A stretch of 64,000 bases of DNA, taken from contig NZ_FOLL01000006.1 of the NCBI RefSeq assembly GCF_900112315.1, positions 1-64,000 of the forward strand, written 5' to 3'. A program made the translations under genes and the position numbers. Positions 16,046-38,496 of the stretch are shown here, piece by piece. The first letter of the stretch is position 1. Each line of letters opens with the position of its first letter. Source of the stretch: Parapedobacter composti (lineage in GTDB: Bacteria > Bacteroidota > Bacteroidia > Sphingobacteriales > Sphingobacteriaceae). Below the pieces are notes generated by a model. It ran no database searches, was not told where the DNA came from, and worked only from the letters and a program-made list of their open reading frames with translations.

Positions 16046-19000
16046 TTAAAACGCCGCCTGCAGGGTAAACGTGGCCGTCCGCGCGAAGGGATAGTCTATC
16101 CCGCGCTCTATCTGGACAGACGACCACCGGAACAGGTCGTTGGCGGTTACGCCCAGCCGGAGGCGCGACATGGCGAGCTTGGCGGCCAGTGCCGGGTTCA
16201 GGTCATAGGACAGGAACACCGACTGCAGCGACAGCGTGTGGTCTGGCATGATGAAGCGCGACGATACGCGGGTTTGGCCGAGATCCTGGATGTTCTTGAA
16301 GAACGCCCTGTCGCCGGGCTTCTGCCATTTCTCTTCAAACACGCGCCGGTCTACATTATACCGCGGATCGGCGTTTTCCACCCGGTCTACGAGCGTTTGG
16401 TTGTATAGGTCGCCGCCGAAGCGGGTCTGGAAGTAAACCACGGCCATGAACTGCTTATACCGCACGGTGGTGCCGAAGGAGCCTTCCATCTTGGGGGTGG
16501 CGTTGCCCACCACGGTGATGTCGCGCGCGTCCCACTCGTAAGAGAGGGTGCCGTCTCGTTTGATGAATATTTCCCTGCCGTTTTCCGGATCGATGCCCAG
16601 TGAGGGCACGGCGTAAATGGCGTCAATGGATTGCCCTTCGTTGTAACGCAGCAAGGGGACGCCGCGGAGGTCCGGCTCGCCGTTTTCCGGCGTTTTCTGC
16701 TGGGCATCGTTTACGCGATCGTTATAGGCTTTCAGCGCGTTGGAAATGCGGACAATCTTATTGGTGTTGTGGGCGAAATTGCCCATCAGCGAAACCGTCC
16801 AGTCGCGGTTGTTGACGGCTTGCCACGTGAGGTTGAGCTCTGCTCCGCGGTTTTCCATATCGCCCAGGTTTTCTTTGTATGACGAGAACCCGGTGGAAGG
16901 CGCGATGGTGATGTCTGCCAGGATATCGCGGGTAAGCCTGCGGTAAACGCGCGGCGTCATGACCAGCCGGTCGTTGAACAGGCCCAGGTCAAAGCCGGCG
17001 TCTGTGGTCAGCGTTTTTTGCCAGGACAGGCCCGTGTTGCCGAACGACTGCACGATGGCGCCGATTCCGGAAGAGTACCAGTTATCCTGCTGGTAGCGGT
17101 AGGTGGTGCGCGACATGTAGGGCGAGAACTGGACGGAACCGGTAACCCCGGTGGTGAAGCGCAGGCGGAGGAGGCTGACGGCATCAGACCGGAACCAGGG
17201 TTCCTGATGGACGTTCCACCCCAGGCCGGCCGACCAGAAGGGGGCGGTGCGGTTGTCGCTGCCGAACTTGGACGAACCGTCTATGCGGACGGTGGCATCC
17301 AGCAGGTAGCGGTTGTGCAAGGAATAGTTGGTGCTGGCGAATAGCCCGAACAGGCGCGATTCGTAAAGGTCGCTGGATGGACTGGCATTTTCTGCATACC
17401 CTTTGGCGAAGCCGATGCTGCTGAAACGGTCGTTGGGGAAGCCGATGGCTTCGAACGCCCGTTCGTCCAGCCGCTCGGTGCGGATGTTGGTGCCGCCAAC
17501 CAGGTTGAAGCTATGGTCGCCCACCTGCTTGATGTAGTTGACGCGCAGGTTGCCATCCCAGAACGTTTCGTCCAGATTGGCGTTGTAATAGGCGCCTTTC
17601 TCGTCGGTGCGCGAAGCTTCGTAGTTATAGAACTCGTTGGCCAGCGGCGAACGGTAATGGCTTACCTGGTGGAGCCGCTTGGTGAAGCTGATCTGGCCGC
17701 GCAGCCGCAGGCCGGGTGCCAGCTCGAACTCGCCGGCAAGGTTATCGATAATCTCGTTGTAGTTGCCGCGGTTAAAGCTGCTGAGGGTGGCGTCGAAGAG
17801 CGGATTCAGCAGGTTAACGTAGGAGATGTTGTTGGTGTTTCCGAGATAGGCCAGCCGCTCAGGGCTTTGCACGACGTTGCCGTTATCATCGGTCATCCGG
17901 TAGTAGGGGTTCATGCGCACGTAGTCGGCAAAATTGCCGTAGGGCGATTCCTGCGAACCCACCACGGTAATGGCGAGCTCGTTCTGGAACCGGATTTTGT
18001 TGTTCAGGTTGTAGCTGAAGTTCATGCTGCCGGAATACTGGTTGCGGTGCGAACCCTTCATGACGCCGGGCCGTGTCTGGTAGCGCAAATCCACGCCGTA
18101 GCGGAACACCTGGGAGCCGCCTTCTACGAAAAGGCCGTGTTTCTGGCCTACCGCCGTACGCACGGGCTGCGACAGCCAGTAGGTGTTTACGCCGCCGACC
18201 ACGCTGGCCATCTTGGCATAATAGAGCACATCCAGGTCGTATTGCGACTGCCCTCCGCGCGCGGTGTATAGTCCGGCAAGCCGCTCGTATTCCAGCTTTT
18301 CTGCCGCATTGAGCACGTGGTAGTCGGTGAGGTCCGGCCCGCTGACACTGGTTTCGTGGTTGTAGGTGAGCTGCAGCCTGCCGTCTTTGGGCACTTTGGT
18401 GGTGATGACCATTACCCCGTTGGCGGCGCGCGACCCGTATACGGCCGTGGCGGCGGCATCTTTCAGGAGTGTTACCGACGCGATGCGGTTCATGTCGAGA
18501 TCAAGCACCTTCTGCACGCTGACCTCATAGCCGTCCAGGATGAAGGCGGGCATGTTTACCGTGGTGGTGACATTGTCGCGCCGGAGGATTTCCGTATCCA
18601 CCCCGCCGGGCAGGGCCGATGAGCCGCGCACCGTGATGTTGGGCAGGGCATTGGGGTTGGAGCCGGCAATGTTGTTTTCAGCCAACCGGAAGGAGGGGTC
18701 AAAAGTCTGCATGGCCTGCAACACGTTCTGTGGATTGACCCGCTGCAGCTCTTCGCCGCTTTTGGTGATGGCCGTGCCGGTATAACTGTCGCGGTTGATC
18801 ACCTGGTAGCCGGTAACCACCACCTCGTCCATCTCGCTGGTTTCTTCTTCCAGCACGATGGTATATTCGGTTTGGCCGGACACGAGCATAACGGTTTGGG
18901 GCTGATAGCCCATGAAGCTGACCACCAGCCGGTTGTCTGCGGGCATTTCCGTAACGGTGAACCGGCCGGCATCATCGGCCACCACGGTGGGCCTGCCCTT

Positions 19001-19435
19001 CAGGGCGATGGTGGCGCCGGCCAGCGGCACCTGCTTCGCGCCGACCGTGCCCAGCACAACGCCCCGGACGGGCTGCTGCCGGGCCGGAGGGCTTTCCTGC
19101 GGCTGGGCAGGGCGTTGCTTCTGCTCCAGCATGATGGTTTTATCGACAAGACGGTAGCCCAGGGGCTGGTTTTTGAGCAGCAGCGCAACAAAGTCAAGCA
19201 CGGGCATGTTGCGGACGTTTACGGTGACGGGCAAGGTATGGGCAAACATGGACGTATTGCCCACCACTTCATAATCCGTTTGCTGCCTGATTGCTTTTAG
19301 CGCCTCGGACAGCGGCTGGTTGGCCGCCCGGTAAGTGATGTGTTGTGAATACCCCGCCAGGCTAACCTGCAAAAACAGGGTCATATGAAGAAAAGCGATG
19401 ATTTTCATCACGGGTAACGTATATTTTTTGTTCAT
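16046..19435 (-). CDS. SusC/RagA TonB-linked outer-membrane receptor with STN signalling domain
   Basis: 1129 aa. A signal peptide is followed by an STN domain (about residues 33-105, with HITYRAANQPLSEALKAIRQ and IRQQTDYEVV). Next come a carboxypeptidase-D-like domain (GVVLGTVGAKQVPLAGATIA), the plug with the TonB-box-like EMDEVVVTGYQ, and a long 22-strand-type barrel ending in FTLQAAF. The STN domain marks it as a transducer that signals through the FecR anti-sigma factor and ECF sigma factor encoded just upstream. It is the receptor half of the SusCD pair. Confidence 0.95.
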   Translation of the reverse strand: MNKKYTLPVMKIIAFLHMTLFLQVSLAGYSQHITYRAANQPLSEALKAIRQQTDYEVVGNTSMFAHTLPVTVNVRNMPVLDFVALLLKNQPLGYRLVDKTIMLEQKQRPAQPQESPPARQQPVRGVVLGTVGAKQVPLAGATIALKGRPTVVADDAGRFTVTEMPADNRLVVSFMGYQPQTVMLVSGQTEYTIVLEEETSEMDEVVVTGYQVINRDSYTGTAITKSGEELQRVNPQNVLQAMQTFDPSFRLAENNIAGSNPNALPNITVRGSSALPGGVDTEILRRDNVTTTVNMPAFILDGYEVSVQKVLDLDMNRIASVTLLKDAAATAVYGSRAANGVMVITTKVPKDGRLQLTYNHETSVSGPDLTDYHVLNAAEKLEYERLAGLYTARGGQSQYDLDVLYYAKMASVVGGVNTYWLSQPVRTAVGQKHGLFVEGGSQVFRYGVDLRYQTRPGVMKGSHRNQYSGSMNFSYNLNNKIRFQNELAITVVGSQESPYGNFADYVRMNPYYRMTDDNGNVVQSPERLAYLGNTNNISYVNLLNPLFDATLSSFNRGNYNEIIDNLAGEFELAPGLRLRGQISFTKRLHQVSHYRSPLANEFYNYEASRTDEKGAYYNANLDETFWDGNLRVNYIKQVGDHSFNLVGGTNIRTERLDERAFEAIGFPNDRFSSIGFAKGYAENASPSSDLYESRLFGLFASTNYSLHNRYLLDATVRIDGSSKFGSDNRTAPFWSAGLGWNVHQEPWFRSDAVSLLRLRFTTGVTGSVQFSPYMSRTTYRYQQDNWYSSGIGAIVQSFGNTGLSWQKTLTTDAGFDLGLFNDRLVMTPRVYRRLTRDILADITIAPSTGFSSYKENLGDMENRGAELNLTWQAVNNRDWTVSLMGNFAHNTNKIVRISNALKAYNDRVNDAQQKTPENGEPDLRGVPLLRYNEGQSIDAIYAVPSLGIDPENGREIFIKRDGTLSYEWDARDITVVGNATPKMEGSFGTTVRYKQFMAVVYFQTRFGGDLYNQTLVDRVENADPRYNVDRRVFEEKWQKPGDRAFFKNIQDLGQTRVSSRFIMPDHTLSLQSVFLSYDLNPALAAKLAMSRLRLGVTANDLFRWSSVQIERGIDYPFARTATFTLQAAF

Positions 19436-19530
19436 TCAATTGTGTTTGGTTCGATAAGGAATTAAGTGATTCCGTGTGGGTGGTGGTTTTGATACAGGGT
19501 GTCGGTGTGTTCGATAGGGCCTCCTTTCTG

Positions 19531-20706
19531 TTAGGGATTACGAGTGGCTGTTGATAAGATTAGTGTGGTATCAGGCGTTAGGCGATAGCGGATGCCGTTG
19601 GTTTCCAACAGGCTCATCACCGTGGCCAGGTTGTGGTTGCGCCGGATGCCTCCGTAAAATTCGATGGCCGGGATGCGGCCTTCGTAGGCTACCTTGATGT
19701 TGTACCAGCGGGACAGTTCGCGCATGACCTGCGGCAGGGTTTTGCCGTCAAAATGGAAGCGGCCATCGCGCCAGGCGGTATACTGATCAGTAGCTACCTC
19801 CTGTATGCTGAAGCGGCCTTGCTGGAGGATGCTCTGTTTGCCGGGGGTAAGGAGCTGTGCAGGCTGCCCCGTGGCCGCGCCGTTCAGGGATACGCTGACT
19901 TTGCCGGTTACCAGTGTGGTGGTGATGGTGTTTTCGTCGGGATAGGCATTGATATTGAACTCCGTGCCAACCACGGCAAGCTCTTGGTGGCGGCTGGCCA
20001 CGATAAACGGGCGCTGCGGGTCTTCCGCTACGGCGAAATACGCTTCGCCCTCAACCGTCACCCGGCGTTCGCTCCCGTAAAAACGGCTGGGATAGGTAAG
20101 GGTAGAGGCCGCATTGAGCCATACGGTGGTGCCATCGGAGAGCGTTACGCGGTAGGTGCCGCCTTTCGGGGTGGCCAGTGTAAGCGTACCGGCATGTTGC
20201 GGGGTGGGCCGGCTGGAATCGGGGGCTTCGCTGACCACCGCGCTTCCATCCGCATAAGTGATGCCATCTGCCACCACAATGCCTGTCTGCCGTTCGCTTA
20301 ACGCAACGGTGGAACCGTCGGCCAGCGACAAGGTCGCCTGGTTGCGCCCCGGCGCGATATCCTGCATGGCCAGCGCCGTTTCAGCGGGCCGGGGCGGGCG
20401 GCCCCAGAAAAACCACACGGCACCCGAAACGGCAAGCAGCACGGCCGCGGCCTGAAGCCAGGTGCGCAGCGGCGCACGGCGCCGCGGTTGCCGTATGACT
20501 TGCCTGAAAATGCGGTTTGCACGCGTTGCCGGCATGGCGCGCGCATTGCCCGGCCCGATGGACGCCCAAACGCCATGCATGAGCGCCTGGAGTGTGGGTT
20601 CGTGCGCCGCGGCATGAAGCACCTGCTCCCATTCGGCCTTTTCCGCGGCCGAAAGCTGGCTATCCAGGTAACGTTGGTGTAAGTATTCGATACGGCTTTT
20701 GTCCAT
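19531..20706 (-). CDS. FecR family anti-sigma factor
   Basis: 391 aa from ATG 20706. The order of parts is cytoplasmic N-terminal sigma-binding helices (SRIEYLHQRYLDSQLSAAEK), one membrane helix at about 95-112 (WLQAAAVLLAVSGAVWFFWG), a periplasmic FecR domain (LATPKGGTYRVTLSDGTTVW, LNAASTLTYPSRF, VEGEAYFAVAED), and a C-terminal DUF4974-type domain (LPQVMRELSRWYNIKVAYEG). It would hold the ECF sigma factor inactive until the STN domain of the neighbouring SusC signals ligand uptake. It lies between the sigma gene and susC. Confidence 0.93.
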   Translation of the reverse strand: MDKSRIEYLHQRYLDSQLSAAEKAEWEQVLHAAAHEPTLQALMHGVWASIGPGNARAMPATRANRIFRQVIRQPRRRAPLRTWLQAAAVLLAVSGAVWFFWGRPPRPAETALAMQDIAPGRNQATLSLADGSTVALSERQTGIVVADGITYADGSAVVSEAPDSSRPTPQHAGTLTLATPKGGTYRVTLSDGTTVWLNAASTLTYPSRFYGSERRVTVEGEAYFAVAEDPQRPFIVASRHQELAVVGTEFNINAYPDENTITTTLVTGKVSVSLNGAATGQPAQLLTPGKQSILQQGRFSIQEVATDQYTAWRDGRFHFDGKTLPQVMRELSRWYNIKVAYEGRIPAIEFYGGIRRNHNLATVMSLLETNGIRYRLTPDTTLILSTATRNP

Positions 20707-20775
20707 AACCAAGCGGAGCTTTCAATTAAAGACGCACGCGCGGCCCCGCAGGGGCAACGGTGGGTTAAAAAAATA

Positions 20776-21369
20776 TTAAAAAAGTTTTAACAATAGCAGC
20801 AACACGCCGGATACCCCGTGCTTGTTGAGGTAATCTCGGAGAAAGCGGAGCGCCAGTTTCATGTGCCGGTGCACGGTTTGCTCCGATATGGCCAATTTCT
20901 GGGCCGCCTGGCTGTAGGTAAGCCCTTGTTGATGGCAAAGTTGGTATACCCGCTGCTGCTGGGGCGGCAGCCTGGCGATGCCTTCTTCCAGGATGCGGCG
21001 CGTATCGCGCAGCAGGATGGCCTCTTCGGTGTTGTTGGTGAAGGGTTCCTCCGCCGCGGGCAGCGGGGTATGGAGTTTTTCCCGAACCTTGTTGCGGCGG
21101 AGGCAATCCAGCGCGTGGTTGCGTGCGATAATGAAGATATACTGCTGCAGATCGCCGATACCGGCCAGGTCGCTGCCTTTTCGCCACAGCTTCAGGAACA
21201 CCTCCTGCACGGCTTCTTCGGCTTGCTGGTCTGACTTCAGGTAATGCAGGGCGAACGTGTAGACGCGCGATTGATAGGCATCAAAGATGAACTTAAAGGC
21301 ACGCGAATCTCCCCGGGCCGAGCGGGCCAGCGCATCTTGTTCGTCGAAATCAGCCGGGATTTCGCTCAT
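20776..21369 (-). CDS. ECF sigma-70 factor (FecI-like)
   Basis: 197 aa from ATG 21369 (MSEIPADFDEQDALARSARG). The upstream open frame overlaps the divergent promoter region and is not a plausible N-terminus. Region 2 is seen as AFKFIFDAYQSRVYTFALHY and AEEAVQEVFLKLWRKG, and region 4 as ARLPPQQQRVYQLCHQQGLT with AISEQTVHRHMKLALRFLRD. It heads the sigma-FecR-SusC-SusD operon and is the expected transcriptional output of that surface-signalling system. It is divergent to the GntR-type gene. Confidence 0.92.
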   Translation of the reverse strand: MSEIPADFDEQDALARSARGDSRAFKFIFDAYQSRVYTFALHYLKSDQQAEEAVQEVFLKLWRKGSDLAGIGDLQQYIFIIARNHALDCLRRNKVREKLHTPLPAAEEPFTNNTEEAILLRDTRRILEEGIARLPPQQQRVYQLCHQQGLTYSQAAQKLAISEQTVHRHMKLALRFLRDYLNKHGVSGVLLLLLKLF

Positions 21370-30517: not shown

Positions 30518-30795
30518 TAAACGGAAATCGTTTTCGTTTTTCAATGTGTCGTCGTTTTTAAACGGGTTAGCGGGTTCAATAACTGACCATGCAAAGAACG
30601 CATTTACGGGGGGCATAATTGTTCACTATTTTGCCAATTGTGTATATGGATTTGCCACTTTGCATCGGGTTATGGTGCCTGGGGCGGCTAAGATAAGTTA
30701 AATAAGTATACAAAGCGGGTAATCTTTTAAACAGCTTTACCGCCGTTATGCGGGATATTTGCAGCACCAGAAACGAACATTCGCAAGTAGACCTG

Positions 30796-32609
30796 ATGAG
30801 ATTATTCGCTGTATTTATTTTCCAGTTAGCCATGACATGGCCATGCCTTCGCGCCGCGGCAGATTACGGCGCGGCCGATACGTTGCACCAGACCCGGAGC
30901 GGCAAGATGGTTGCCCCGGTGATTGATATTATGCCCCAATTGCGGGTGTTCCACGATTTGAAAGCCATTGAACGCGAAATCAGTGAGCTGAAAGCCCTCG
31001 GGTTCCAGCGGGTCTATTTCGTGTTGTGCAATCCGGGATACCCGTCATTTGCGAGTCCGCGCTTATCCGTGATGCCGCTGTACCCGGATTTACGCAACGA
31101 TATGCTGCGCTCCATCCTTTGCCTGGGCGATCCCAACTGGGTATACGCGAAAGAAGCCAAACGGCAGGGCCTGGAGGCCTGGGCCATTATAAAACCCTAT
31201 GAATCGGGCACGGGAAATACCATCCCCCATAACCGGCATGCCGCACTGAGCTTGGCCCATGTACCGACCGTTGGGGGGCAGCATATCGGCTTCGATGAAC
31301 TGCTGTCTGCTAACCCCCAACCTGCGGGTGAAAAGGAAACCCCTTTCGGCGAGGGAGGAGGCATGCCTGTCTGAACCCATCGAAAAGCTGGAAATCGCCT
31401 TCTGCATCGACTCATTCCGCCAGCGGGTGGGGGCACAGAAGTGGATTGACCATGAAGCCGTGGAAGTTAGCCGGCTCCGGCCTCCTGCATTGGCGCTGTG
31501 GACCAGTGCCGACAACGAAACGTATGCGGAATACGATGCGGTGTTGACCACGGAAACCCGCGTGGAATGGCGGCATGTGTATGATGCAAACGGCCAGCCA
31601 TTGTTTGACCAGCCCAAGCGCCACCTGGTGATGACCGTGGGTGGACTGCACATCTCCCCGGAAACGCCCTACGTGGCACTGACGGTAAGGGAGGGAAATA
31701 GGTGGTCTACGATACCTTACAGCATGATTAAGGCGTTTTCACAGTCGGGCGAAGTGCCACTGACGGCGACCGTGCAGGCCCGGGCGCCTTCTGTACAATA
31801 CCGGGGGACGCTCAGCGAGCGGCAATGGGGCACCGAAGCCATCCCCGTGAAAGGCAACGTGGCCCAAGCGAACTTCAAGACGTATGGCCGGTACGCCATG
31901 TGAGGGGTATCCGGAAGTGACCGACTACTGGCTGCGACAGGTGAAAAATGCGATGGAGATGGGATTTGACGGGGTGGACTTCAGGCTGCAGAATCACTCA
32001 AGCATGGTGACCGACTACGTGGAATATGGGTATAACGAGCCTATTGTGGCACGTTACAGGGATAAATATGGCGTTGACATCCTCCAGGAGGAGGCCGACC
32101 CGCTGAAGATAATGCAGGTTAGGGGAGCGTTTTATGCCGATTTCCTCGAGCAAGCGGCCAGCCTCATCCACTCATACGGCAAAAAAGTGCAGGTGCACCT
32201 GCGGCATGCCAACGAGGCACCCACCCTGAACGATGAATTCAATGAACTTGGCTTCTGGGCAATGCCCAAAGTACAGGTCGACTGGAAGCGCGTTGTTGAC
32301 CTGGCGGATGAAATAACGCTGAAGCATTACTACCACAATGCCTACGATACGGCGATGGCGGCGCAGATTAAGCGGTACGCAAACGCGAAAAACAAACGGG
32401 TGTGGGTACATGCCTATATCCAGCAGGCCGGTGAACTCAACGAAGGTTTTCTGGATGCCGTGGAACAGGACAGCGCCGTGCAGGGCATATTGCTGTATGA
32501 GTTTTCCAACGCCATATTCCAGCCCAGGCGGAAATCAGACGTTTCGTTGAACACCGTGAGGTACCACCTGGAAAAGCTGGGCTTCAGCCCGCCCGGCGAT
32601 ATCCGTTAG
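30796..32609 (+). pseudogene. Secreted glycosidase-like gene broken by two frameshifts
   Basis: One coding sequence in three frames. Part 1 starts at 30796 (MRLFAVFIFQLAMTWPCLRA, signal peptide) and reads to about HIGFDELLSANP. The frame then shifts at a run of five C at 31314-31318; with four C it continues as NLRVKRKPLSAREEACLSEP into the second frame. Part 2 runs to about 31901 (KTYGRYAM stop). The third frame resumes as EGYPEVTDYWLRQVKNAMEM and ends GFSPPGDIR at 32609. Both shifts are in the same direction. The product resembles TIM-barrel glycosidase-like proteins (FDGVDFRLQNHSSM, YVEYGYNEPIVARYRDKYG) but I cannot assign a GH family. It is probably non-functional, unless the shifts are sequencing errors. 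Confidence 0.75.
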
Positions 32610-33626: not shown

Positions 33627-33669
33627 GGCCACTAAGGGTAACGTGCGGCAGCGTTGTCTACTTAAACAA

Positions 33670-34239
33670 ATGGAAGTAACTTTGGCCAAAAGAGAAACAC
33701 CGGTGCATCCCGACCATGATATTACCCTTGCGTTTGAAGCGGCTTTTAAAAGCAATTTCAGGGCATTGCATGCTTATGCCAGCACGATACTGGAGGACGA
33801 CAGCGCGGCTGAGGAAATTGTGCAGCATGTTTTTTTGAAGCTGTGGGAGCATCGCGACCGGATGCGGATACACACGTCGTTGCGGGCATACCTCTATAAA
33901 GCGGTTTACCACGAAAGTTTGAACTACCTGAAACACCGGCGGGTGCGAAGGAAATACATGAAGGAAGCGATGGTTGATTTTAAAGAGCAAGCACCGGATG
34001 CGGCACCCGATGAGGAGCTGCGGCGGCAGCTGAAGGCGGCACTGCGGCTGCTGCCCGAGAAGTGCCGGACGGTTTTTCAGCTGAGCCGCTTTGAGGAGCT
34101 GAAGTACCAGGAAATTGCAGACCGGCTGGGCATTTCGCTGAAGACGGTGGAAGCGCACATGGGTAAAGCGCTGAAGCTGCTGCGGCTGCGGCTGGCGGAT
34201 TTCCTGCCGCTGCTGTTGGTTGTATTACCTTGTATATGA
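33670..34239 (+). CDS. ECF sigma-70 factor of the STN/repeat-protein locus
   Basis: 189 aa from ATG 33670 (MEVTLAKRETPVHPDHDITL). The upstream open frame runs through the A10 hairpin and is unlikely to be translated. Region 2 is seen as HAYASTILEDDSAAEEIVQH with VFLKLWEHRDR, and region 4 as LRLLPEKCRTVFQLSRFEEL with YQEIADRLGISLKTVEAHMG. It is a FecI-like extracytoplasmic sigma factor. The stop is 1 nt before the FecR start, so the pair is coupled. Its expected targets include the downstream STN-repeat gene, since no other output gene is adjacent. Confidence 0.92.
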   Translation: MEVTLAKRETPVHPDHDITLAFEAAFKSNFRALHAYASTILEDDSAAEEIVQHVFLKLWEHRDRMRIHTSLRAYLYKAVYHESLNYLKHRRVRRKYMKEAMVDFKEQAPDAAPDEELRRQLKAALRLLPEKCRTVFQLSRFEELKYQEIADRLGISLKTVEAHMGKALKLLRLRLADFLPLLLVVLPCI

Positions 34240-34240
34240 A

Positions 34241-35191
34241 ATGATGGACGACGCATTATTGACAAAATATCTGCTGAATGAAGCCAGTGAGGCGGAGGCT
34301 GCGGCGGTGCGGCAGTGGATTGCCGCGGACCCCGCGCATGAAAGGCATTTCAGGCACATGCGGCTGATATGGGAGACCAGCCAGTCGCTGGCCAGCGGAA
34401 GCGGCGTGGATGAAGACGAAGCGTGGCGGCGCTTCGTGCAGCGCCGGGATAGCCGCCCGAAAGGGTACAGGCTGGGATGGGTGCGCATCGCCGCCATGTT
34501 GTTGCTGGTGCCTATCGCCGGACTGGCGGGATTCTACCTGCTGGGGCCGGGGGGCGGCGGGCGGTTTGCGTCTACGTATGCAACGGCCGATGCGCCCAGC
34601 ACGGATACGCTGGCGGATGGTTCGGTGATTACGCTGAACCGGTTTGCCGAACTGGATTTTTCGCAAAGCCCGTTCAAGCGGGAGCGGACCGTAGACCTGC
34701 ATAAGGGCGAAGCTTTTTTCAGGGTTGCTCCCGATGGGAAGAAGCCGTTTGTTATCCGCTCCGGAGACGTAACGGTTACCGTGGTGGGTACGTCTTTCAA
34801 CGTGAAGCGCCGGGGCGACGAAACCACCGTAATCGTTGAAAGCGGAAAGGTGAACGTGGCGGGGCTTAACCAAACAGCGGAGCTGGGGCCGGGCCAAAAG
34901 GTGACCGTGAATACGCGTACCGGCAGGTTTGAGGAAGGATGGGCGGAAGACCGGCTGCACCATTATTATGTGAACCGCCGCCTGGTGCTGGACAATACAC
35001 CGCTGTGGCGCATCGCGGAGGTGCTGGAGGAGGCTTATGGTGTGGACATCGCCATAAGCCGGAAGGAAATCGGGGAGCTGCCGATGTCAACCACCCTTCG
35101 CCTGGGGCCGCTGGACGAGGTGCTGAACGTGGTGGCGCAGACGCTGGGCGTGCAGGTTGAACGGACGGGAAAAAGGGTGGTCATCCGGTGA
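34241..35191 (+). CDS. FecR family anti-sigma factor of the STN/repeat-protein locus
   Basis: 316 aa from ATG 34241 (MMDDALLTKYLLNEASEAEA). Cytoplasmic helices are followed by a membrane segment at about 84-104 (WVRIAAMLLLVPIAGLAGFY), a FecR domain (ATADAPSTDTLADGSVITLN, LHKGEAFFRVAPDGKKPFVI, VTVTVVGTSFNVKRRG), and a C-terminal domain of STN/DUF4974 type (IAEVLEEAYGVDIAISRKEI). It would sequester the preceding sigma factor. Its stop overlaps the start of the next gene (TGATG), so the STN-repeat protein is translationally coupled to it. Confidence 0.92.
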   Translation: MMDDALLTKYLLNEASEAEAAAVRQWIAADPAHERHFRHMRLIWETSQSLASGSGVDEDEAWRRFVQRRDSRPKGYRLGWVRIAAMLLLVPIAGLAGFYLLGPGGGGRFASTYATADAPSTDTLADGSVITLNRFAELDFSQSPFKRERTVDLHKGEAFFRVAPDGKKPFVIRSGDVTVTVVGTSFNVKRRGDETTVIVESGKVNVAGLNQTAELGPGQKVTVNTRTGRFEEGWAEDRLHHYYVNRRLVLDNTPLWRIAEVLEEAYGVDIAISRKEIGELPMSTTLRLGPLDEVLNVVAQTLGVQVERTGKRVVIR

Positions 35192-36810
35192 TGCGGCTGA
35201 GGTTGGCGCTCGTCGGCCTGGTATTGGCCGCTCCGCTGGTTACCCGTGCGCAACACCTGATGCGTGAAATCGCAGTGGCAGACAGCGGTCCGCGCCGGCT
35301 GGGCGACTTGCTGGAGGAAGTCAGCGAAAGCCAGGGATTTTATTTTTCATACAACAGCACGCTGGTGGCCGAAGACAGCGTGGTGGCGCTGGACCGGTTT
35401 AAGGGCAGGCTGGCAGACCTCCTGGAGCGCACCTTCGGCAGTAACTATGAATTCAAGGAGGCCCCGGGGTATGTGATTATCCGGTATGCGCCGCATACGC
35501 TGGATCTGGCGATGCACATCGACAGCGAGCGGAGCGGGACGCTGGTGGTGACGGGGTGGATTAAGGATGCGGCGAGCCACCGGGGGGTGCCCGGCGCAAG
35601 TGTTTATGAACGGAACGTACTGGTGTCTACCTTGTCTGACTCCGACGGGCGGTTCAAGCTGTCCATCCGGCGGCCCGGCGAAAGCGTATGGCTTACGGTC
35701 AGCAAAGCAGACTACCGCGATACCACGGTGGTGCTGCTGCCGACGGTGAAGGTAGGGGGCGGCGATAAGGGGCGGCGCTATGCGTTTTATCCTGACGATG
35801 GCGGCAAAGCCGGACTTGAAAGTTCGGCACTGGGCCGCTTTTTTACGAGTTCAAAGCAACGTATCCAACGCATCAACCTGGGCGGCTTTTTCGCGCACAG
35901 CCCGTATCAGGTGTCGCTTACGCCGGGCCTGAGCTCACAGGGGCTGTTCAACAGCCAGGTGGTTAACCAGGTGTCGCTGAACCTCGTCGGCGGTTATACC
36001 GCCGGGGTGCGCGGCATTGAGATAGGGGGCGGATTCAATATCAATCAGCACGATGCCCACCGCGTGCAGGTAGCGGGTGCGTTTAACCTGGTGGGCGGGC
36101 AGATGCGGGGGCTGCAGGTGGCCGGTGTGTCGAACGTGGTGTTGCAGCGCGCGGGCGGTGTGCAGATAGCCGGTGTGGCCAACTGGGGCGGGGAGGTGCA
36201 AGGCGTACAGCTGGCCGGTGTTTTCAACAAGGCGCGCCGGAACAGCGGCCTGCAGCTGGCGGGGGCGATGAACACCGCCGACGGCGAGGCGGGCGTGCAG
36301 GTAGCGGGGATAGTGAACCGGGCGCGCCACGTGCGGGGCGTGCAGGTGGCCGGTCTGGTTAACATAGCTGACAGCAGCGACTACCCCGTTGGTATCGTGA
36401 ACCTGGTGAAGAACGGCCGGAAAAGTATAACCGCAGGGGCGGACGAGTCTGGCATGATGCAGTTGGCATTCCGATCGGGCGGACGGGTACTCTACGGCTT
36501 GGTTGGCGTAGGGCATTACCTGAACGGCAATCCGCTGAAATATGTGGTTGAAGCGGGAATGGGGGCGCACGTGGCGGAGGGGAGAACTTTTTTGTTTGAT
36601 GTTGAACTGGTGAGCCGGACGAGTACGGATCTCCGCATCGCCACGGGATCGCGGGTGGCACTCCGGGTGCTCCCGCAGTTTCGCATCGGCAGGCACGCCA
36701 GTGTCATTGCCGGTCCGGCCCTCAGCTATACCTATCCTGAAGCAGACCACCGCTATGGGGGCGAAGGCTGGCAGGCCGGTGTTTACGGCGGCCTGGCTTA
36801 CCGGTGGTAA
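35191..36810 (+). CDS. STN-domain surface repeat protein (GVQVAGVxN repeats), atypical signalling partner of FecR
   Basis: 539 aa from the ATG overlapping the FecR stop. A signal peptide (MRLRLALVGLVLAAPLVTRA) precedes an STN-like domain at about 25-105 (RLGDLLEEVSESQGFYFSYN, RFKGRLADLLERTFGSNYEF). A carboxypeptidase-D-like module follows at about 118-185 (VTGWIKDAASHRGVPGASVY). There is no plug or TonB-dependent barrel. Residues about 275-395 instead hold tandem 15-16-residue repeats of the form GVQVAGVxN, as in LA_2272-type surface repeat proteins. The C-terminal part (FRSGGRVLYGLVGVGHYLNG to GVYGGLAYRW) looks like outer-membrane strands. STN domains normally relay signals from a receptor to FecR; here the repeat protein appears to take that place. 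Confidence 0.8.
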   Translation: MRLRLALVGLVLAAPLVTRAQHLMREIAVADSGPRRLGDLLEEVSESQGFYFSYNSTLVAEDSVVALDRFKGRLADLLERTFGSNYEFKEAPGYVIIRYAPHTLDLAMHIDSERSGTLVVTGWIKDAASHRGVPGASVYERNVLVSTLSDSDGRFKLSIRRPGESVWLTVSKADYRDTTVVLLPTVKVGGGDKGRRYAFYPDDGGKAGLESSALGRFFTSSKQRIQRINLGGFFAHSPYQVSLTPGLSSQGLFNSQVVNQVSLNLVGGYTAGVRGIEIGGGFNINQHDAHRVQVAGAFNLVGGQMRGLQVAGVSNVVLQRAGGVQIAGVANWGGEVQGVQLAGVFNKARRNSGLQLAGAMNTADGEAGVQVAGIVNRARHVRGVQVAGLVNIADSSDYPVGIVNLVKNGRKSITAGADESGMMQLAFRSGGRVLYGLVGVGHYLNGNPLKYVVEAGMGAHVAEGRTFLFDVELVSRTSTDLRIATGSRVALRVLPQFRIGRHASVIAGPALSYTYPEADHRYGGEGWQAGVYGGLAYRW

Positions 36811-36876
36811 TTTTTTTTCTTGAAGGCGTAAGGGTGGCGCGGGCGTTTGCTGTCTTATGATCAAAACAACATAATA

Positions 36877-37461
36877 ATGATTAAAGACATGCAAAAGATG
36901 AAAACTATCGGAACATGCCTGGCGATGCTGGCCGGGCTGGCAGGCACGCAGGTGGCCACAGGTCAGACCCTCGATTTGGGCGTGAAGGCAGGCGTGAATT
37001 ACGGAATGCTGCACAGCGGCGCTGGCGCGGTAAGCGACGCGTCTGGAAAGACCGGATGGCATGTTGGGCTGTTTGCCCGCACGGGCAACGACTTTTACTT
37101 TCAGCCCGAGGTGAATTACACGTCGTTCAGCAGTGAATTTTCTTATGAAGGGCAGGTTTATGAGCCCCGATTCCGGCAACTGAATGTGCCCCTGATGGCG
37201 GGATACCGCATCATCAGTAACGGTAACATGAACCTGCGGGTATCTGCCGGCCCTGACGTGAACCTGAACCTGAATACGCCCGTTGCGCCCCAAGCTACCA
37301 GTTATAGGCGGTTTACGGTGGGTGGCGTGCTCAACGCCGGGGTGGACCTGGGCCGGGCTACCTTTGATGTGCGCTACAGCCGCGGGCTGACCGATATCAA
37401 CGAAGGGCTGAAACAGAAAACCGGCGTACTCGGGTTTTCTGTGGGATTCAAGATTCAATAA
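36877..37461 (+). CDS. Outer-membrane beta-barrel protein (PorT/OMP_b-brl type)
   Basis: 194 aa from ATG 36877 (MIKDMQKMKTIGTCLAMLAG); ATG 36898 (MKTIGTC) is an equally good start with a tighter signal peptide. The mature part begins QTLDLGVKAGVNYGMLHSGA, the pattern of small 8-stranded outer-membrane barrels of Bacteroidota, with alternating strands (YFQPEVNYTSFSSEFSYEGQ, LNVPLMAGYRIISNGNMNLR) and a terminal GVLGFSVGFKIQ. It sits between two GVQVAGVxN repeat proteins in the same operon direction, and may assemble with or anchor them. Confidence 0.82.
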   Translation: MIKDMQKMKTIGTCLAMLAGLAGTQVATGQTLDLGVKAGVNYGMLHSGAGAVSDASGKTGWHVGLFARTGNDFYFQPEVNYTSFSSEFSYEGQVYEPRFRQLNVPLMAGYRIISNGNMNLRVSAGPDVNLNLNTPVAPQATSYRRFTVGGVLNAGVDLGRATFDVRYSRGLTDINEGLKQKTGVLGFSVGFKIQ

Positions 37462-37470
37462 GGGGCATCT

Positions 37471-38496
37471 ATGAAGTTACGTCATATCACGGGGCTGTTG
37501 ACCCTGCTGTGCTGCTCCAGCTTGTTGCCTGCACAGGAAACCAGTCCGGCCCATGTGGGTATTCTGTACCCGCTGAGCACCCATGGCGACAAAGCCGCTG
37601 CATACACCAACCATTTCAGCCTGCATGCGCTGTGGGGCGTATCCGGAGGCGAGAAAGGCCTGGGCCTGTACGGCGCGGCGGGCACGGTGAAAGGCGACGC
37701 CAGCGGCGTGCAGGCGGCGGGCGTGTTTAACGGGGTGGGCGGCGAACTCAAGGGCGTGCAACTGGCCGGCGTCATGAACCGGGCCCATACCATGGCGGGC
37801 GGTGCCCAGTTTGCCGGTGTACTGAACGTGACTGGTGGGCGTGCGCCGGTGCAGCTGGCCGGGACGGCCAACGTGACCGACAGCGTAAAAGGAGCGCAGG
37901 TTGCCGGCGTGGTCAATGTGGCCGGCCATGTGCAGGGGGTGCAGATAGGCGGGGTGGTGAACAAAGCGGGCAAGGTAAGCGGCGTGCAGATTGCGGGCTT
38001 GCTGAATATTGCAGACAGCAGCGATTACCCCATAGCCATCATCAACATCGTCAGGAACGGAGAAAAGCGGGTGGGAATATCGACGGATGAAAACCTTTTT
38101 ACGATGGTAAGCTTCCGCTCCGGCGGAAGGAAGCTTTATGGCCTGGTAGCGGCCGGTGTCAGTCCGCTGCATCCCGAACGGCGCTATGCCGCGGAGGGCG
38201 GACTGGGCATCAGCCTGGTGGAGCGCAACGCGTTCAGGCTGGATATGGAGACCGGCCACCTTTTTGCCACCGATTTTGAAGGCCATGAATATTACCGAAG
38301 CGGCCTGCGTTTGCTGCCAGCCCTGCGGCTGGGCAGCCATGTGCAGATCTTCGGCGGCCCGGGGGTGTATTATGCGAGCGCAAACACGCGGGAGGGCGCT
38401 GTCCGCGCGGGATGGGAACTCTGGGAACGGCAGCGCCTGGCGGAACGCCAGTCTATTTACCTGGGAGGCACGGTGGGTTTGCAGCTGGTGCTGTAA
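37471..38496 (+). CDS. Second GVQVAGVxN surface repeat protein (LA_2272-like)
   Basis: 341 aa with a signal peptide (MKLRHITGLLTLLCCSSLLP, then AQE). It lacks the STN and carboxypeptidase-D-like modules of the 35191 gene but shares its repeat region. Seven to eight tandem units of about 15 residues run from about residue 75 to 180 (GVQAAGVFNGVGGELK, GVQLAGVMNRAHTMAG, GVQIGGVVNKAGKVS). It has the same capping sequence (LLNIADSSDYPIAIINIVRN) and the FRSGGRKLYGLVAAG block. It is a paralogue of the 35191 protein's C-terminal half and is probably an outer-membrane or surface protein. It follows the barrel gene by 9 bp. Confidence 0.82.
   Translation: MKLRHITGLLTLLCCSSLLPAQETSPAHVGILYPLSTHGDKAAAYTNHFSLHALWGVSGGEKGLGLYGAAGTVKGDASGVQAAGVFNGVGGELKGVQLAGVMNRAHTMAGGAQFAGVLNVTGGRAPVQLAGTANVTDSVKGAQVAGVVNVAGHVQGVQIGGVVNKAGKVSGVQIAGLLNIADSSDYPIAIINIVRNGEKRVGISTDENLFTMVSFRSGGRKLYGLVAAGVSPLHPERRYAAEGGLGISLVERNAFRLDMETGHLFATDFEGHEYYRSGLRLLPALRLGSHVQIFGGPGVYYASANTREGAVRAGWELWERQRLAERQSIYLGGTVGLQLVL

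Follow-up and report, generated by a model that had tools for sequence, protein, structure and literature searches.

STN-FecR signalling usually goes together with TonB-dependent uptake. In a sigma factor/FecR gene set of Parapedobacter composti the STN domain instead belongs to a protein other than a TonB receptor, and the question is what this third partner does. The set lies within a stretch of 64,000 nucleotides (contig NZ_FOLL01000006.1, positions 1 to 64,000; hereafter the window), and its third gene codes for a protein of 539 amino acids (aa), referred to as P3. We consider it likely that the locus encodes a dedicated cell-surface-signalling unit, with a non-transporting outer-membrane STN transducer and a putatively autoregulated sigma factor of the extracytoplasmic function (ECF) type. 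The domains, the predicted fold, the conservation of the gene set, the grouping of the sigma factor and a promoter-like motif with its distribution were obtained by computation. The features of the locus are as follows.

33632..33664, + strand: promoter-like motif CTAAGGGTAACGTGCGGCAGCGTTGTCTACTTA before the sigma gene, 25.6 bits
33670..34239, + strand: ECF sigma factor, 189 aa; TIGR02985, sigma-tree group 100/98
34241..35191, + strand: FecR anti-sigma protein with FecR_C, 316 aa; 1-nt gap to the sigma gene
35191..36810, + strand: P3, putative outer-membrane STN transducer, 539 aa; TGATG overlap with FecR
35251..35505, + strand: STN domain of P3, residues 21-105; hhalign match to SusC STN, PF07660 in homologues, block pLDDT (predicted local distance difference test) 86-93
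35539..35739, + strand: carboxypeptidase-D regulatory-like domain (CTLD) of P3, Ig fold, residues 117-183; CarbopepD_reg_2, 4zjg match
35965..36405, + strand: GVQVAGVxN repeats of P3, predicted beta-solenoid, residues 259-405; model, 3p4g match
36412..36807, + strand: predicted 8-stranded outer-membrane beta-barrel of P3, residues 408-539, C-terminal W; 4rlc match
36828..36860, + strand: weaker second motif copy GTAAGGGTGGCGCGGGCGTTTGCTGTCTTATGA before the barrel gene, 15.1 bits
36877..37461, + strand: small OMP_b-brl_2 barrel protein; Pfam, start chosen from the motif position
37471..38496, + strand: P3 paralogue, 341 aa, no STN or CTLD; 41% identity to P3 residues 237-528

The sigma gene runs from an ATG at 33670 to a stop at 34239, the FecR gene from an ATG at 34241 to 35191, and the P3 gene begins with an ATG at 35191, so the close packing of the three genes described in the initial annotation agrees with the coordinates. 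The Pfam/NCBIfam scan assigned the sigma protein to TIGR02985 (E 4.4e-49) and FecR to PF04773 and PF16344, both above cut-off, hence the periplasmic C-terminal domain is present. The canonical SusC/FecR/sigma set that had been noted at 16046-21369 of the window was also found there. A search of the genome with P3 returned P3 itself, the adjoining paralogue and four weak N-terminal matches in frames of 1034-1189 aa.

The N-terminal half of P3 begins with residues resembling a signal peptide (1-20). The Pfam STN model did not match the window protein, and a genome-wide PF07660 search gave nothing in 35191-36810. The assignment of residues 21-105 to an STN domain, as judged from sequence profiles, is sound despite this miss, because PF07660 is matched by 15 of the 67 aligned members of the P3 family at E 0.001 or better and because the P3 STN profile aligns with STN segments from 29 SusC proteins of the same genome (hhalign Prob 98.2, E 6e-14, 79 columns; at most 0.23 for 20 column-shuffled profiles). 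The STN fold proposed in the initial annotation was thus not refuted. A PDB sequence search with the same profile yielded three weak matches, the third being a PilQ secretin (E 0.94). The next domain is recognised as CarbopepD_reg_2 in 65 of the 67 members; in the window protein the CarboxypepD_reg families stay sub-threshold, as does OMP_RagA_SusC across the same stretch. Structural alignment places 4zjg on model residues 103-183 with Z 10.8, and the N-terminal extension of SusC (9hfj) matches the model at 36% over 53 columns. A linker of approximately 70 residues follows, mostly of low confidence and with one predicted helix.

The C-terminal half contains the tandem GVQVAGVxN units, which are real: seven strict units occur in P3 and six in the paralogue, mostly 15-16 residues apart, while 200 shuffled versions of P3 contained 0.23 on average and never more than 2. 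Among homologous loci the strict units number from 3 to 11, with a mode of 7 (125 of 133 loci have any). In the full model (mean pLDDT 82.6, predicted template modelling score, pTM, 0.54) the repeat region has a block pLDDT of 62 at residues 261-270 and 78-97 thereafter; folded alone, the repeats reach a mean pLDDT of 80.9 and a pTM of 0.74. Foldseek with the repeat-only model gave nothing significant (best E 0.26), and a PDB sequence search with the repeat profile gave no match. A second aligner superposed the repeats on right-handed beta-solenoids, namely 3p4g (Z 14.8, root-mean-square deviation, rmsd, 2.5, 161 residues aligned) and HxuA (Z 13.5, rmsd 2.5), with FHA secretion domains also among the structural matches. 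Left-handed helices (LpxA, GlmU) were rejected as templates, aligning only at an rmsd of about 9.5. For residues 408-539 the predicted model aligns with the N-terminal barrel of OprF, 4rlc (Z 16.0, rmsd 2.3, 122 residues aligned), and with other 8-stranded outer-membrane barrels; plain Foldseek on the P3 model found none at E 0.001, the best match (2.4e-3) being a designed transmembrane barrel. No Pfam outer-membrane protein family was found for P3, its 67 aligned members or the paralogue. Plug or TonB-receptor families were detected neither in the window protein nor, at E 0.001, among the 67 members. The initial description of P3 as lacking a plug and a TonB-dependent barrel is therefore correct, but the protein does end in a barrel of the predicted 8-stranded outer-membrane type.

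Both ends of 8-stranded outer-membrane barrels are periplasmic. Since the ends of this barrel would lie in the periplasm, the solenoid, the CTLD and the STN domain should all be periplasmic as well. With the barrel so oriented, the strand limits of the model put the longer loops, of 3, 7, 5 and 11 residues, on the outer face and those of 3, 3 and 4 residues on the periplasmic one. The repeats, which had been taken for a surface array, are thus probably periplasmic according to the model.

For the conservation of the gene set, 301 genomes of the family were screened at E 1e-10 and a draw of 395 genomes of the phylum at E 1e-5; P3 matches were found in 132 and 65 of them, respectively, the latter with many repeat-only matches. 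Of 141 loci taken, one (L162) had no target open reading frame (ORF) and seven duplicates were removed, leaving 133, of which 121 match the STN/CTLD segments of the window protein. At least two of the other 12 (L119 and L122) carry STN by Pfam. The loci include related species and their counts are not independent, and neighbouring genes were labelled by phmmer with window or locus proteins rather than from annotation. Sigma, FecR and P3 are colinear in 102 of the 121 loci, convergent in six, and one more has FecR but lacks the sigma gene, where the contig ends. FecR and P3 overlap or sit a few bases apart in many loci. The set is thus conserved, and the claim of the initial annotation that its STN domain belongs to a protein other than a TonB receptor is supported. 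The repeat-barrel paralogue lies in the same-strand run of 33 of the 121 loci. SusC was found in none of the 121 same-strand runs and within four genes at two loci.

The TonB receptors near these loci deserve separate mention. A receptor without STN belongs to the same-strand run in 7 of the 121 loci and lies within four genes in 15, so its presence in the operon is real but not regular. Ten such receptors were tested: all have a CTLD, nine match Plug at E 0.001 (six above cut-off) and none has an STN domain. When receptors within six genes of STN/CTLD loci are considered, 13 of 15 carry the motif of the cassette (see below), and further motif-led receptors, recognised by similarity, occur in L327 (2.2 Mb from the cassette), L292 (about 15 kb from it) and L283. 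The signalling thus appears separate from transport, yet a receptor would belong to the regulon of some lineages, and the term “transport-independent” used at the outset is too strong.

A sigma tree was built from the window, 45 cassette loci drawn at random and 36 other sigma factors of the window genome. All 46 cassette sigmas fall into one group (100/98), apart from 35 of the 36 others, and the group spans Sphingobacteriaceae, Cyclobacteriaceae, Chitinophagaceae and Flavobacteriaceae. A further locus of the window genome (L218:3022-7755) contains a sigma gene, FecR, an 838-aa STN-bearing receptor-like protein and an adjoining ORF like the small barrel; its sigma factor has a branch of 3.16, no cassette motif was found for it (best -0.2 bits), and the set may be related to the system as a variant of the receptor type.

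In eight aligned regions before the sigma gene (the window and seven relatives of the same genus) AGGGT and GTTGTC are invariant at fixed spacing between unalike flanks, an arrangement which we take to resemble an ECF -35/-10 pair. The core GGGT-N14-TTGTC precedes the sigma gene in 36 of 113 loci, where shuffles that keep base content only would give 0.25, and the 14-nt gap is identical in 35 of the 36. With a matrix built from these 36 sites, and a threshold at the 99th percentile of regions shuffled in two-base blocks, the motif is found before sigma in 60 of 114 loci (including the 36 training sites), before FecR in 0 of 118, before P3 in 4 of 121 and before other neighbours in 44 of 1199 across all loci; several of these 44, e.g. 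DUF6134 genes, lead the same operon. On both strands of the window the best site is that before the sigma gene (25.6 bits), and the second best is that before the barrel gene (15.1 bits), the core of which has one mismatch and was found with a loose pattern. The start of the small barrel gene was set at ATG 36877 because the listed TTG 36847 falls within this motif copy. Among 34 other sigma upstream regions examined in the window genome the core occurs in one. The strict pattern is present in 46 of 75 family genomes with a P3 homologue and in 10 of 126 without (p 4e-16); the reversed control leans the same way (24 of 75 and 22 of 126, p 0.024), and some of the genomes counted as “without” may be misses, as the P3 search scored at most four candidates per genome. 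The window genome itself holds no strict-pattern match because its site begins with CTA.

Genes led by the motif suggest what the sigma factor may control. In STN/CTLD loci it precedes the repeat paralogue in 38 of 46 cases and the small barrel gene in 15 of 22; the count for repeat ORFs over all loci was 40 of 60 with 12 target ORFs included and 39 of 48 without them. The small barrel protein (OMP_b-brl_2 in the Pfam/NCBIfam scan) and the paralogue, which lies 9 nt behind its gene, has a signal peptide-like start, repeats and a C-terminal part resembling that of P3, and gave no family in the same scan, are better read as members of the regulon than as parts of the sensor, as they had been regarded. 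In six genomes of the same genus (L310-L314, L320) the motif precedes a repeat-barrel paralogue at a site that lies on a different contig from the cassette or 70 kb or more away from it. In six genomes (L308, L315, L316, L317, L319, L323) it stands before a gene for a PepSY-like protein; five of these sites are far from the cassette and one, L308 (genome G057), adjoins a second cassette, and the four of the six genes tested by Pfam were all PepSY_like. A search of the window genome with a PepSY-like stretch, a query without a positive control, gave no match. Beside the cassette the motif also leads a small barrel gene (L306) and a receptor gene (L280), and far from the respective cassette a DUF6134 gene (L325) and the receptor gene of L327. 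Several of the strict-pattern sites fetched had no gene or an unrelated gene behind them.

Lipid A acyltransferases take part in making lipid A. Genes for proteins of this kind (PF03279) occur within seven genes in 12 of the 121 loci, eight of the 12 with the motif at 19-23 bits, and seven of these eight loci are of the Sphingobacterium type. In three further stretches from the same genus (L260, L261 and L262) the motif scores 20-23 bits before the acyltransferase gene; it is lacking in L065 and L066, and was also found before such a gene in genomes G058 and G192 (L326, L329). The suspicion that these sites had arisen by chance was dropped after motif scoring across the loci.

Lipid A acyltransferase-like genes under the motif: L069, L077, L135, L149, L150, L151, L153, L260, L261, L262, L326, L329

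Taken together, we infer the topology in the cell, the contact between STN and FecR, the cue, the proteolysis and the binding of the motif by the sigma factor as follows. P3 would be anchored by its 8-stranded barrel and stand on a periplasmic beta-solenoid, with the CTLD and the STN domain held on the linker of about 70 residues, from where they could reach towards the inner membrane. By docking on the FecR C-terminal domain, the STN domain would control how stable FecR is, as described for FoxA/FoxR. Once the outer-membrane part of P3 perceived a cue, FecR would be processed and the sigma factor freed, which would then transcribe from AGGGT(AA)-GTTGTC both its own operon and that of the small barrel and the paralogue; in relatives its targets may extend to TonB receptors that lack STN, to head-GIN, DUF6134 and PepSY-like proteins and to lipid A acyltransferases. 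Because the putative targets are envelope proteins, lipid A acyltransferases among them, it seems likelier that the cue comes from the outer membrane itself than that it is a nutrient. It is conceivable, and we advance it tentatively, that the loci represent a widespread class of signalling systems in Bacteroidota which monitor how the outer membrane is faring and not the import of a nutrient; a barrel-anchored solenoid of variable length would set the STN domain on FecR, and dedicated sigma factors would respond by having lipid A acyltransferases made, along with paralogues without STN, small barrels, lipoproteins of the PepSY-like kind and a few receptors. This idea was regarded with slightly more reserve until the acyltransferases were found under the motif.

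Several results weigh against a dedicated signalling unit of this kind. The profile comparison of P3-STN with the FecR C-terminal domain gave a weak match (Prob 16), and, at a pTM of no more than 0.54 for the full model, the placement of the P3 domains is unsure. Because the long-branched L218 sigma falls inside the group, the cassette sigmas do not form a strict clade (two changes, 0% one-clade bootstraps). The motif stays below threshold in 54 of the 114 sigma upstream regions; in 372 kb of other stretches from the window genome three sites reach 12 bits, two of which exceed the barrel site (15.9 and 15.2 vs 15.1), and the core pattern is not enriched in that genome (15 matches vs 26 in the reversed control). 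Moreover, 12 of the 121 P3 homologues have no sigma/FecR genes beside them, 11 of them in Flavobacterium. In the genomes of these 11 no close FecR was found elsewhere either (best 34-38% identity, compared with 77-100% in two control genomes), which indicates that an STN-bearing P3 can persist where a cognate FecR is lacking.

P3 homologues with an STN segment and no adjoining sigma/FecR: L161, L163, L168, L170, L173, L177, L178, L184, L185, L187, L188, L105

The receptors in the putative regulon leave room for another division of labour, in which P3 is the signalling half of a split receptor and a separate TonB receptor (CTLD and plug, no STN) transports, so that signalling reports transport in trans. 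The domain make-up of the ten receptors tested, the motif before 13 of the 15 and the further motif-led examples fit this proposal, as do the loci with a receptor in or near the gene run. Most loci, that of the window included, have no such receptor within four genes, however, and no recognisable receptor directly follows any of the 15 core matches in the window genome; such a split therefore appears unlikely. P3 might instead be an output of the sigma/FecR pair, its STN domain serving assembly or docking as in secretins while FecR senses otherwise. Close STN-less paralogues under the same motif and the orphan homologues speak for it, yet the copy adjoining FecR retains both STN and CTLD, to neither of which the repeat paralogues have a match, and the overlap or few-base spacing of FecR and P3 recurs in many loci; we regard this role as improbable. 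Repeat beta-solenoids are often surface passengers, and the structural matches include HxuA and the FHA secretion domains, in keeping with the earlier picture of repeats on the cell surface that perceive an external ligand directly. Given that the solenoid is N-terminal to a barrel with periplasmic ends, that the longer loops fall outside in this orientation and that the preceding STN domain must be periplasmic to meet FecR, hardly any likelihood is left for that picture.

As regards known systems, the dedicated unit proposed here shares with FecI-FecR-FecA and the SusC-linked ECF-FecR sets an ECF sigma, the FecR C-terminal domain, an outer-membrane partner with an N-terminal STN domain and the tight gene order; unlike FecA and SusC, P3 has no plug or TonB-receptor barrel but a predicted 8-stranded barrel and solenoid, and the set is distinguished by a sigma group and a motif of its own. 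Residues 408-539 are predicted to fold like the 8-stranded barrels with a periplasmic domain of the OmpA/OprF type, whereas in P3 the periplasmic part is N-terminal, with STN, CTLD and solenoid, and no match to a Pfam outer-membrane family was found. In PUMA3 of Pseudomonas aeruginosa, VreA is described as an STN transducer, not a TonB receptor, that works with the ECF sigma VreI and the anti-sigma VreR; it has no barrel, is mostly soluble and carries a TolA/TonB-like C-terminal domain, in contrast to the predicted outer-membrane anchoring of P3 (PMC2729926). A possible working mechanism for P3 is offered by FoxA, a siderophore receptor whose signalling domain is reported to bind the anti-sigma FoxR without signal and to shield it from proteolysis (PMC11637429). 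Proteins with both domains are already annotated in Bacteroidota: a gene-table row gives the RefSeq product “STN and carboxypeptidase regulatory-like domain-containing protein”, and that row names no function, barrel, repeats or sigma/FecR link (PMC12893687). A literature search, with most subscription papers outside its reach, found no description of the sigma-FecR-P3 set. The initial statement that no description of such a combination was known agrees with this result, with VreA as a precedent in kind: the principle is known from VreA, the nearest precedent, from which P3 differs in having a barrel, a solenoid and a CTLD, and the set in having a sigma group and a motif of its own. What emerges is a conserved, largely separate sigma group in many genera that partners with a small outer-membrane protein. 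The motif and the gene list make the system directly testable with respect to cue, regulon and STN control of FecR, give a lead on the function of a large family of unnamed repeat-barrel proteins, and would place lipid A acyltransferases in a single envelope response together with PepSY-like and DUF6134 proteins.

Other proteins recur in the neighbourhood. Within seven genes head-GIN (DUF2807) proteins are found in 22, fatty-acid hydroxylases in 21 and DUF6134 proteins in 12 of the 121 loci, mostly two to five genes before P3 (L083, L086, L175 and others). The divergent fatty-acid desaturase gene adjoining the window cassette was set aside, as it recurs in one of the 121 loci. None of the 25 pattern matches in a viral collection encodes a relative. 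The idea that the window genome has many receptor-less FecR sets was rejected, for 29 of 36 FecR genes in the fetched stretches precede a SusC-labelled gene; six are followed by other proteins of 838-1199 aa and one by SusC behind a small opposite ORF. One of the 29, the SusC-like gene that follows sigma and FecR at L232:3927-5837, is broken up into short frames. Elsewhere, the gene after sigma and FecR at L124:7864-9447 (minus strand) encodes a protein of 528 aa that begins like an STN domain, continues with a CTLD and has a quite different, repeat-free C-terminal half; this may be a second architecture that is not a receptor. L117 and L118 contain repeat proteins without an STN/CTLD match, in same-strand gene runs with no adjoining sigma/FecR. 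Finally, three overlapping plus-strand ORFs at 30748-32609 of the window may represent one gene broken by frameshifts.

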